This document shows, one piece after another, positions 14,673 through 16,784 of a DNA stretch of 25,103 nt; the stretch's first letter is position 1, and every line of letters begins with the position of its first letter. A program made the translations under genes and the position numbers. The DNA lies in the IMG/VR virus record IMGVR_UViG_3300044619_000176, positions 1-25,103 of that record, one strand, 5' to 3'. Under the pieces are notes generated by a model. The model was not told where the DNA came from. It did not search any database and saw nothing but the letters and a program-made list of their open reading frames with translations. The stretch is from a virus.

Positions 14673-14876
14673 ATGACACCAATACCGAAACCAAGCATCC
14701 AGACCGCCGTAGAAGCCCTCCGTGACCGCGAGGAATATGCCGCCATCCTTCAGTTTATCCACGATGAGCGTGAGAAGTTCTTTGGTGATTTCCGCCAAGC
14801 AGAATCATCGAATGATGTGATGAAGCTCGCAGGAAGCATCTCTACGCTGGATGAGCTACTCTCAGTCTTAGCTTGA
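14673..14876 (+). CDS. Small hypothetical protein (67 aa)
   Basis: The product is helical and charged (AVEALRDREEYAAILQFIHD; LAGSISTLDELLSVL). It is the last rightward gene before an 867-base break and is followed within 35 bases by a terminator, so it ends the packaging operon. There is no Shine-Dalgarno sequence. The frame is open back to 14616 but has no better start. Similar short helical proteins near portal or capsid genes are known from memory but have no function. Confidence 0.6.
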   Translation: MTPIPKPSIQTAVEALRDREEYAAILQFIHDEREKFFGDFRQAESSNDVMKLAGSISTLDELLSVLA

Positions 14877-14909
14877 CAAACCCGCTAGAATAGTCTAAGC
14901 ATTTCCCGA

Positions 14910-14935
14910 ACCTGCTTCGGTAGGTGTTTTGTTTC
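14910..14935 (+). terminator. Rho-independent terminator with TTCG loop
   Basis: ACCTGC-TTCG-GTAGGT makes a six-pair stem (one G-U) capped by the stable UUCG tetraloop, followed by GTTTTGTTTCG. It lies about 33 bases after the last gene of the packaging operon and would end rightward transcription. Confidence 0.75.
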
Positions 14936-14959
14936 GTTTCATCGTTCATAGTTTGGGAG

Positions 14960-14995
14960 AAGGTCACAGGTTAAAATCTGTGGCCTTTTCTTTTG
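14960..14995 (+). terminator. Second rightward rho-independent terminator
   Basis: AAGGTCACAG (14960-14969) pairs with CTGTGGCCTT (14978-14987), ten pairs with one U-G, across an eight-base loop, followed by TTCTTTTG. Two terminators in tandem indicate that the packaging operon must be firmly separated from what follows. Confidence 0.85.
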
Positions 14996-15005
14996 TCCCA
15001 TGCTA

Positions 15006-15029
15006 CATGGTACTTAAGCATGGTACTTA
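15006..15029. repeat. Direct repeat CATGGTACTTA x2
   Basis: CATGGTACTTA occurs at 15006-15016 and 15019-15029, a 13-base period. Flanking TGCTA (15001-15005) and TAGCA (15028-15032) make an outer inverted pair. It could be a protein-binding site; no known motif was recognised. Confidence 0.7.
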
Positions 15030-15047
15030 GCATTACCAACGGTTAAG

Positions 15048-15068
15048 TTGACTTACACTTGACTTACA
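15048..15068. repeat. Direct repeat TTGACTTACA x2 with 11-bp period
   Basis: TTGACTTACA occurs at 15048-15057 and 15059-15068, one helical turn apart. The ten bases ACTTGACTTA (15057-15066) recur at 15674-15683 on the other side of the gap, with a further TTGACTT at 15699-15705. TTGACT resembles a -35 element, but no matching -10 at proper spacing was found, so these may be iteron-like binding sites. Confidence 0.65.
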
Positions 15069-15130
15069 TTTGTGACCTTTAATTAAGACAGTCACCTCGC
15101 TTACGCTCGATCAAACTTCCCTCCGAGAGG

Positions 15131-15161
15131 AAAAAGACACACCAACCTCTTAGGGTTGTGT
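15131..15161 (-). terminator. Possible leftward terminator
   Basis: Read leftward, ACAACC (arm 15161-15154) pairs with GGTTG-GTGT (arm 15147-15139), eight pairs with one bulge and a six-base loop, and is then followed by GTC and five T (15135-15131). On the + strand the same stem is preceded, not followed, by the A/T tract, so polarity favours leftward transcription. The stem is modest, hence medium confidence. Confidence 0.45.
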
Positions 15162-15181
15162 TAATAAACCCTATGATTCGT

Positions 15182-15506
15182 GGTCTACCATGTGGAACCC
15201 CTATCTCTAGAGACCCAATTCGGTTGTGCGCTCTTCCCCCCGCTTCGGATTAAAGCCTATAACGGACGCTGGATGATAGGTTGGAATCAGAGCCAGCCGC
15301 GAGCCTAATGGTAGTGAAGTATTCTCATACCCCTTTGCCCGTCCTAATGGCTGTCTTGTTCCACTAGGAACTAGCACTTTGAAAAACAAAGGGCTAGCAC
15401 GAGGAGGTCGGAGTACTCGTGCCAGCCCTAGATCCATTGCTCTACGCGCCGGAGGGGTGAATAGTGACGATGAGTCCGACCTCTCGTCAACGCCAAAATA
15501 CCACAT
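15182..15506. ncRNA. Candidate structured RNA, strand uncertain
   Basis: Complementary segments are unusually dense. GGTCT/AGACC: 15182-15186 with 15211-15215. H-type pseudoknot: 15254-15260 with 15276-15282, and 15268-15272 with 15293-15297. Hairpin GGTA-g-TGA/TCA-TACC: 15310-15331. GTTCC-ACTA-GGAAC: 15358-15371. CTAGC-a-CTTTG/CAAAG-g-GCTAG: 15371-15397. A 12-pair stem: 15391-15428. Bulged hairpin: 15466-15488, whose loop is complementary to the loop of the 12-pair stem. Read leftward, the single mismatch of the 12-pair stem becomes G-U, giving 13 continuous pairs, and a leftward terminator lies at 15131-15161. No known RNA family was recognised, and protein coding on the minus strand is a competing view. 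Confidence 0.4.
15207..15506 (-). CDS. Doubtful leftward gene; C-terminus resembles a uracil-DNA glycosylase motif
   Basis: A 99-codon frame starts with ATG at 15506-15504, with a GGGGG tract five bases upstream. The C-terminal third contains LGSRLALIPTYHPASVIG. PTYHPA is the active-site motif 2 of family-4-type uracil-DNA glycosylases, where it follows a basic G-R/K strand much as here. The N-terminal GEAPG-type motif and the Fe-S cysteines are absent, so a full enzyme is impossible. Rare codons (AGG, ATA, CGA, CTA, GGG) are frequent, and the frame coincides with strong stem-loops, so it may be non-coding. If real, it is the only leftward gene in the window; it could also be a decayed fragment. 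Confidence 0.22.
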   Translation of the reverse strand: MWYFGVDERSDSSSLFTPPARRAMDLGLARVLRPPRASPLFFKVLVPSGTRQPLGRAKGYENTSLPLGSRLALIPTYHPASVIGFNPKRGEERTTELGL

Positions 15507-15541
15507 TCTTACCCCCAGTCAATAGGAAATCTTTAAGAATT

Positions 15542-15563
15542 TGTGACGGGATTTAAGGTCACA
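15542..15563. promoter_or_regulatory. Inverted repeat 1 (TGTGAC-N10-GTCACA)
   Basis: Perfect six-base arms at 15542-15547 and 15558-15563. It is the first of three similar dyads upstream of the scaffold gene and a probable operator or RNA hairpin. The half-site also appears as GTGAC (15072-15076) with GTCAC (15091-15095) at the far side of the gap. Confidence 0.55.
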
Positions 15564-15579
15564 TTTTGCGTCAAGTTTT

Positions 15580-15607
15580 GTGACAAATTTAACCCAGTAT
15601 TTGTCAC
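15580..15607. promoter_or_regulatory. Inverted repeat 2 (GTGACAAAT-N10-ATTTGTCAC)
   Basis: Perfect nine-base arms at 15580-15588 and 15599-15607 with the same ten-base spacer length as repeat 1. The centre is about 41 bases (four helical turns) from that of repeat 1. The symmetry fits a dimeric DNA-binding protein. Confidence 0.6.
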
Positions 15608-15612
15608 GGTTT

Positions 15613-15642
15613 TGTCAGAAAAACTACACATTATTTCTGACA
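15613..15642. promoter_or_regulatory. Inverted repeat 3 (TGTCAGAAA-N12-TTTCTGACA)
   Basis: Perfect nine-base arms at 15613-15621 and 15634-15642, centred about 34 bases after repeat 2. It ends next to a possible leftward -10 (15642-15647), a position where a bound repressor would block leftward initiation. Confidence 0.6.
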
Positions 15643-15670
15643 TAATGCGTTAAATTTAATACCTTGCCAA
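15642..15670 (-). promoter_or_regulatory. Possible leftward sigma70-type promoter
   Basis: Read leftward, TTGGCA (15670-15665) is followed after 17 bases by CATTAT (15647-15642), 5/6 and 4/6 matches to the -35 and -10 consensus. Transcription would start near 15635 within inverted repeat 3 and run into the candidate RNA/ORF. This was found by eye only, and the host consensus is unknown. Confidence 0.3.
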
Positions 15671-15743
15671 ACTACTTGACTTAGTAATGATTAAATGCTT
15701 GACTTCGCTCATCGCCACCGCAGGGCGTTAACCAGCGTACAAA

Positions 15744-16784
15744 ATGACTAATACCAATCAAGCTAACGCCGAGGCTGAAGAATCGGTGGACAATATCTCA
15801 TTCGAGGAGCTTATCGCTCGGAGAATTGGGGAAGCAACTGCACCAGAGGAGACTGAAGAGGAACCCCAGGATACCGAGGAAACCGAAGAAACCGAACCTG
15901 CCAGTCAAGAGGACGAGGAAGAGGTGGAGGAAACCGAGGAAGAATCCGAGGAGGAATCAGAGGGAACCGAGGAGCAGTCAGACATAGACCTGTTGAATCT
16001 CTCACCGGAGCAGATCCAAGAGCTTGCCAAAAAAGGTAAGAGTCGCCTCCTTCAACGGATTGGTGAACTCACCGCCCAAAAGCGAACCTTAGAGGAAAAG
16101 CTCGCGGCTCAACCGCAGATGGTTCGTCAAGTCGAGGAGAACGAGATCCCAGATGCTATCCGTAAATTGGAGAGCTTCGAGAACCTCAAAGACTTCTACG
16201 ACGAAATGACGAAGACTCTAGAGTCAACGGACGAGATCTTGGATGAACACGAAGACTACGGCCCCGATGACATCATCACCGTTGGCGATAAAGAGTTCAC
16301 CAAGCGTCAAATCCGCAAAGCCAACAGGAACGCCAAGGAGGCACTAACAAAGTACATCCCAGCCCAACAGCAGCAGTTGATCAAAGTTGCCCAGTTCGGT
16401 GAGATGTCCAAGCAGTACTCCGAGGCAGCACGAAAAGAAGTTCCAGAGATCCAAGACGAAGAGTCTGAGATCGGAAAGAACTATAAGGTGCTAGTCGAAG
16501 ATCCCCTAGTTTCTAGAGTGAAACGCGAAATCCCCGAGATTGGGATGCAAATTGAATACATTCTTGCTCATGCGGCAAGGTCTATCTTTGGAAAGAAAGC
16601 CAAGGCTATCCAAGCTGGAGCTGGGAACAAGTTGAAGGTGTCGCCACCCGCTTCCCCAGTTGGATCTGGTTCGGTTAAGTCTGGTTCAAATGCCAAAGCA
16701 AAGGTCAAAGACGCATACAGCAGGTTTGAAACGACTGGTTCGGTCGATGATTGGGTTGCCTCACGAATCGCTAAGTTAAAATAA
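15744..16784 (+). CDS. Capsid scaffolding protein
   Basis: A 346-aa protein just before the major capsid gene. Residues about 30-80 are extremely acidic (for example EETEEEPQDTEETEETEPAS). A predicted coiled coil follows around 95-120 (LLQRIGELTAQKRTLEEKLA), then mixed charged helices, and the C-terminus is basic (KAKVKDAYSRFETTG...WVASRIAKLK). An acidic helical body with a basic C-terminal helix that binds the capsid shell is the normal plan of podoviral scaffolds. The protein would guide procapsid assembly and leave before packaging. No Shine-Dalgarno sequence is present. Upstream are the three inverted repeats, which may control this operon. No protease domain is seen. Confidence 0.8.
   Translation: MTNTNQANAEAEESVDNISFEELIARRIGEATAPEETEEEPQDTEETEETEPASQEDEEEVEETEEESEEESEGTEEQSDIDLLNLSPEQIQELAKKGKSRLLQRIGELTAQKRTLEEKLAAQPQMVRQVEENEIPDAIRKLESFENLKDFYDEMTKTLESTDEILDEHEDYGPDDIITVGDKEFTKRQIRKANRNAKEALTKYIPAQQQQLIKVAQFGEMSKQYSEAARKEVPEIQDEESEIGKNYKVLVEDPLVSRVKREIPEIGMQIEYILAHAARSIFGKKAKAIQAGAGNKLKVSPPASPVGSGSVKSGSNAKAKVKDAYSRFETTGSVDDWVASRIAKLK

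Follow-up and report, generated by a model that had tools for sequence, protein, structure and literature searches.

A predicted leftward non-coding RNA unit with matched kissing loops between portal and head genes of uncultured phages

An accessory unit in the head gene region

The locus described here raises a simple question: what is encoded by a stretch of phage DNA, lying between the portal and head genes, in which no gene follows the direction of its neighbors? All long open reading frames (ORFs) around this gap (14877–15743) in the window, by which we mean the whole 25.1-kb virus record that was analyzed, read rightward. They comprise a T4-type large terminase (matching Pfam Terminase_6N), a portal identified through distant similarity to annotated portals, a scaffold-like acidic protein that starts at 15744 and a major head protein (matching phrog_1328). 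The gap is bordered upstream by a 67-aa gene ending at 14876 and downstream by the scaffold gene, and the ORF listing of the window contains no rightward ORF of at least 60 aa within it. This listing agrees with a preliminary description of the DNA, which held that every confident gene reads rightward and that the gap lacks such a gene. The two tandem rightward terminators that were said to open the island are likewise present. One, at 14910–14925 on the plus strand, is a UUCG-capped hairpin, ACCUGC(UUCG)GUAGGU, followed by a U-rich tail, and would serve the upstream (portal) operon; the other, at 14956–15000 on the same strand, consists of a 16-bp stem followed by TTTTCTTTT, and a comparable second terminator occupies the same place in relatives. 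Between them and the scaffold gene, folding of the minus strand of 15040–15540 against shuffled sequences gave a z score of −3.3, compared with −1.5 for the plus strand.

We compared the site across about 85 relatives. A portal scan of IMG/VR returned 80 loci at 81–100% identity, and DNA-pattern scans extended the locus set up to L140; several of our counts refer to loci rather than contigs, with some contigs represented twice, and counts of distinct sequences are given where relevant. In all relatives holding both flanks, the site has the 67-aa gene on one side and the scaffold gene on the other, and the gap varies in length from 195 to about 1930 nt. It is short, 195–255 nt, in about 15 relatives, where only the terminators and the last pre-scaffold stretch are left. 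The latter (15659–15738 in the window, plus strand) is probably a rightward control region and is kept even where the leftward unit is missing. In L054, L072 and L073, an unrelated 122-aa leftward ORF replaces the RNA unit, and no leader RNA is found. The relatives with neither a short gap nor this ORF carry the leftward RNA unit, which is conserved wherever it is present. One further arrangement was observed on the plus strand of the L034 island, where a 172-aa HNH-type gene reads rightward between the leader promoter and the scaffold gene.

Our model of the leader RNA, R1, has no match anywhere in seven unit-less contigs of 23–40 kb whose portals are 83–84% identical, and none in Phage C75C1 (OQ984151), which has a portal 55% identical and about 55 nt at the gap. 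These absences argue that the unit is an accessory insertion that does not belong to the packaging machinery. R1 also matched weakly on the plus strand at the gap starts of L067, L074, L065 and others; these matches were set aside as generic terminators that form one homologous set. With what appear to be its own promoter and terminator, a place between operon genes and absence from relatives, the unit has the attributes of a phage moron. A DNA-level search for the island in isolated phages gave chance matches only, and in a host search of GTDB bacterial genomes neither the capsid nor the 20-nt core pattern of the type II RNA described below was found.

The putative leftward promoter is of the sigma-70 type (TTGACT-16-TATTTT, 15522–15495, minus strand), with the −35 element TTGACT at 15517–15522 and the −10 element TATTTT at 15495–15500. 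TTGAC is present in all 48 distinct relatives and a −10 element in 47 of the 48; in nearly all of these upstream sequences the two are spaced by 16–17 nt and the −10 reads CATTAT, TATTTT, TAAGAT or TAGGAT. Three sites resembling TTTGTSACAAA lie between this promoter and the scaffold gene: the palindrome TTTGTGACAAA at 15577–15587, TTTGTCAGAAA at 15611–15621 and TTTCTGACATA at 15634–15644, where 0.12 sites are expected per shuffle of the 221-nt stretch. Similar sites occur in many, although not all, unit-bearing relatives, and of three unit-less relatives that were checked, two have none and L052 has a single site with two mismatches. The sites fit the putative operators of a divergent control region. 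The possible leftward promoter and the three dyads facing the scaffold gene proposed in the preliminary description are thus borne out. Its broader claim of a separately controlled divergent leftward unit is supported, the relatives supplying a conserved promoter, a covarying minus-strand RNA, operator-like repeats and empty or alternative versions of the site. Of the outcomes that it named as speaking against such a unit, neither a lack of conservation, where the unit is present, nor covariation at the level of shuffled sequence was observed. On these sequence comparisons, the island is best read as an accessory unit, placed between the portal operon and that of the head genes, that would be transcribed leftward into non-coding RNA.

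The predicted leader RNA and its kissing loops

The first part of the unit is a predicted leader, or small RNA, of about 110 nt (15382–15491, minus strand), in which hairpins B, C and A follow one another from 5′ to 3′. Hairpin B (15465–15489) forms the 5′ end of the RNA and, like hairpin C (15433–15453), is supported by covariation. Hairpin A (15390–15429) is a predicted intrinsic terminator with a 14-bp stem and a 12-nt loop, behind which lies the conserved T-tract TTTGTTTTT (15382–15390). The stem energy of terminator A ranges from −19 to −28 kcal/mol, and every aligned leader has the T-tract terminator, with variable sequence past it. A leftward terminator-like signal had been noted earlier, and one can indeed be seen at 15158–15143, but it lies inside the larger RNA and its U-run is lost in L065 and L068. 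We therefore rejected it as a working terminator; the conserved leftward terminator is instead the hairpin at 15429–15390 with its T-tract to 15382.

Two-sided changes are found in 25 of 35 leader pairs, and none of 500 shuffles did as well, so that covariation on the minus strand far exceeds that of shuffled sequence. With the pseudoknot included, 89% of cells in 32 distinct sequences are paired, compared with 34–44% when the structure is slid, a score that undercounts the kissing helix because the A1/A4 loop alignment is one column off in the CGAAGTAGGA allele. When the stems are read as the minus strand, G-U outnumbers A-C by 62 to 15, which identifies the minus strand as the RNA. The earlier alternative of a leftward reading frame or a structured RNA is settled in favor of the RNA. 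The frame in question, a 99-aa leftward ORF, was rejected as a gene because allelic loops that differ by 2 nt in length and indels of 1 and 2 nt in L037, L065 and L068 break it; PHROG and Pfam searches with it gave no match.

The kissing sequences in loop A (UCCGACCUC, 15404–15412) and loop B (GAGGUCGGA, 15475–15483), both on the minus strand, are complementary to one another. Such complementarity extends over 8–12 nt in 20 of 21 distinct loop pairs. Within an RNA, the loops form a mean of 9.1 Watson–Crick pairs across these 21 pairs, compared with a best permutation mean of 6.3, and when loops were re-dealt among RNAs the observed sum was reached in none of 50,000 permutations, a test independent of the A1/A4 column shift. 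At least 17 matched versions of the loop sequences exist, among them GAGGTCGGA/TCCGACCTC in the window, CGACCGAAA/TTTCGGTCG in L065 and AGACGGGGG/CCCCCGTCT in L030. The window and L005 are identical at all 84 non-loop columns and differ in both loops, each RNA still being matched, and the same holds for L114 and L132, again with 84 identical non-loop columns. The simplest reading, we infer, is strong selection on loop pairing in a recombining population. The leader at L019:10343–10452 carries mismatched alleles, with loop B of one and loop A of another, and could be a mutant in which the loops were swapped naturally or a chimera created by assembly. A search of the loci themselves for further sites that the 9-nt loops might target in trans gave one, compared with 2.5 expected, and the idea was rejected.

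Helix D, the second RNA and downstream genes

In hairpin A, the 3′ arm has two possible partners in a three-strand exchange, the 5′ arm of the hairpin and a stretch that immediately follows the U-tract. The alternative partner, segment 4 (15371–15381, minus strand), would form helix D with this arm; when segment 4 was permuted among loci of the same type, 0 of 20,000 permutations were as good as the observed pairing. Directly downstream of the T-tract lies a second RNA of about 145–290 nt, which belongs to one of three types. Such an RNA stands behind all 86 leader placements (57 distinct), and a leader precedes it wherever the DNA reaches far enough, with the one exception of L026, where only a type II 3′ tail is found, behind a GIY-YIG ORF. 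By-eye inspection revealed no promoter between the terminator and the second RNA.

In the window, the second part of the unit is a conserved type I structured RNA of about 290 nt (15080–15371, minus strand) with no ORF behind it. Type I has a mean column identity of 95%, an unchanged run of about 45 nt and a minus-strand folding z score of −2.7. Two-sided changes are few, which leaves its structure less certain than that of the leader. Two of its segments, AAGAGCGCAC and AUAGGGGUUC (15194–15241, minus strand), resemble motifs of bacterial RNase P RNA. Despite these two similar 10-mers, derivation from RNase P RNA was rejected, as no covariance match was found at E values up to 5. Type II, of about 260 nt (L016, L017, L078, L115 and others), shows compensatory changes and is absent from Rfam, and is a candidate for a new RNA family of its own. 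Type III, of about 145 nt, was observed in L114, L007, L124, L132 and L135–L140 as a conserved element whose end, a run of G, lies immediately ahead of HNH or GIY-YIG genes. Type III and a nuclease gene precede the 3′ tail of a type II RNA in L007, L021 and L137, as though they had taken the place of its 5′ part.

A leftward gene is often found behind the second RNA in relatives; it is HNH/endonuclease VII-like (phrog_1035), of the GIY-YIG T5orf172 kind or sigma-region-4-like. The nucleases, T5orf172 (GIY-YIG) or endonuclease VII-like, have 140–220 aa and are often absent. In L065 and L068 an HNH nuclease ORF follows the type I RNA, and a comparison of the HNH nuclease with solved structures gave no match. 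We also observed, as the last gene of the unit on the minus strand of the island in L007 (3929–4420), L010, L019, L028, L030, L037, L041 and L070, a leftward protein of 163 aa with a 55-residue N-terminal helix and a part similar to sigma-70 region 4 (Pfam E value of 3.5e-9 in L070; AlphaFold pLDDT of 81.5). It is possibly a phage transcription regulator.

A possible attenuator, alternative readings and known systems

The obligate association of leader and second RNA, the exchange of the 3′ arm and the lack of an intervening promoter suggest a switch between a short and a long transcript. We consider it about an even chance that the unit RNA is a phage attenuator of this kind with allele-specific kissing loops. 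Closure of hairpin A would stop transcription and leave an RNA of about 110 nt. Were loop B to capture loop A while the latter was leaving the polymerase, closure of the 3′ arm would come too late, the polymerase would read through, and the arm would then be locked with segment 4 as helix D. Helix D could not itself act as a classical antiterminator, because it forms only after the polymerase has passed the U-tract. Read-through would yield the downstream RNA and, in relatives, also a nuclease or sigma-like gene; in the window the regulated product would be the type I RNA, since no ORF lies downstream. The operator-like repeats between both promoters would let a phage protein balance the leftward unit against the head operon.

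Like the late formation of helix D and the lack of a downstream ORF in the window, L019 with its mismatched loop pair counts against such a switch, and B, A and the kissing helix could instead coexist as a static fold. A purely structural role for the loops, either in a compact cis fold or in dimers or larger homo-oligomers like those of phi29 pRNA or ROOL/GOLLD, with the T-tract as a linker or normal 3′ end, strikes us as unlikely. Each of the three stems covaries independently of the others, as does the kissing helix, and a single fold can accommodate them all; conserved inter-chain kissing loops are found in GOLLD, ROOL and OLE (PMC12286853), but both the conserved three-strand exchange with segment 4 and the presence of a terminator-like T-tract amid an obligate two-part unit would be left unexplained. 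The at least 17 matched loop alleles, jointly swapped on otherwise identical backbones, would also be expected if the 110-nt RNA acted in trans as an allele-specific regulator, with terminated copies using their A or B loop to bind nascent leaders that share their allele and so setting termination. This would shut off superinfecting phages that carry the same version and spare others, as with plasmid incompatibility RNAs and the P1/P7 c4 RNA. Loop diversification is a prediction of such self/non-self RNA specificity, and P4 CI RNA and c4 offer precedent (PMC4825925, PMC12197685); no lysogeny gene is seen in the window, however, and we hold a trans-acting role to be doubtful. We give similarly limited credence to a self-recognition RNA with lineage-specific loop pairs, in which selection for orthogonality between co-infecting phages would replace both loops together and the RNA would serve as a superinfection or incompatibility code that controls the second RNA.

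It is quite improbable that the unit serves chiefly as a site where homing nucleases land, with the RNAs and the HNH or GIY-YIG genes as mobile elements whose RNA features aid their spread. Such genes do stand behind the RNA in several relatives, and cargo is freely swapped at one place in the genome, but most units, including that of the window, have no nuclease gene, no empty site (a leader without a downstream RNA) was found among the 86 placements, and there is no Rfam intron match. The loops are near-perfect inverted repeats about 60–70 nt apart, and their complementarity might in principle be maintained without selection, through template switching between such repeats as a mutational process, with L019 as an uncorrected intermediate. 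We regard this as very improbable, because conservation extends to the stems, the promoter, helix D and the T-tract, and because new alleles depart from one another at most of their loop positions simultaneously.

At gathering thresholds, Rfam 15 gave no match in the window and seven relatives, and an E-value search gave weak matches only, with scores far under gathering; the described c4, IsrK, pRNA, ROOL, GOLLD, HEARO, group I intron and RNase P models would be included in this release. Neither the Rfam scan nor the literature searched holds a description of the unit, in keeping with the earlier suggestion that it is undescribed. The pRNA of phi29 is a structured phage RNA with complementary loops used for assembly. 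It is required for packaging and kept with the portal, whereas the unit is missing from relatives with similar portals. Complementary loops also serve assembly in ROOL and GOLLD, structured RNAs of phages (PMC12286853); unlike all three, the unit lacks an Rfam match and has a promoter and terminator predicted as its own. In some relatives the gene behind its RNA encodes an HNH or GIY-YIG nuclease, as in HEARO and group I introns, but the unit has no Rfam match and splits no gene, the nuclease is optional and several RNA types occupy one site. A group I intron was rejected because the unit interrupts no gene, standing in every case in the space that separates the 67-aa gene from the scaffold gene, and has no Rfam match, and a HEARO/IscB omega RNA was rejected because the adjacent nucleases are T5orf172 (GIY-YIG) or endonuclease VII-like and not IscB.

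By predicted working principle, the unit is closest to P4 CI RNA, IsrK and antisense attenuators, and neither its sequence nor its anatomy places it among any of them. In the P4 immunity region (CI RNA, seqA/seqC) and in Gifsy-1 IsrK, the leader either terminates early, giving a small RNA, or is read through, and complementary segments of the same transcript decide termination (PMC4825925). As far as sequence can tell, the unit likewise has its own promoter, an intrinsic terminator ahead of further transcript and complementary segments in one transcript (loop B with loop A, the 3′ arm with segment 4). It differs in having no sequence or Rfam match, in sitting in the head gene region and in pairing a 5′ hairpin loop with the terminator's own loop. 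The P1/P7 c4 RNA is short, with loop-borne target complementarity and specificity between related phages (PMC12197685). Loop-borne complementarity is common to both, but c4 blocks translation of ant, whereas the unit has no such ORF and its RNA appears to end in an intrinsic terminator of its own. Kissing hairpins control the formation of a terminator hairpin in pT181-type attenuators (PMC3753616). The unit shares these elements, but the antisense partner there is a separate RNA and here both partners lie in one RNA.

The unit brings to a widespread group of uncultured phages one leader RNA and as many as three larger structured RNAs, all absent from Rfam. Its anatomy predicts two transcript ends and rescue by loop swapping. 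With at least 17 distinct natural kissing-loop pairs on one scaffold, it constitutes a natural experiment in RNA–RNA specificity and its evolution in phages.
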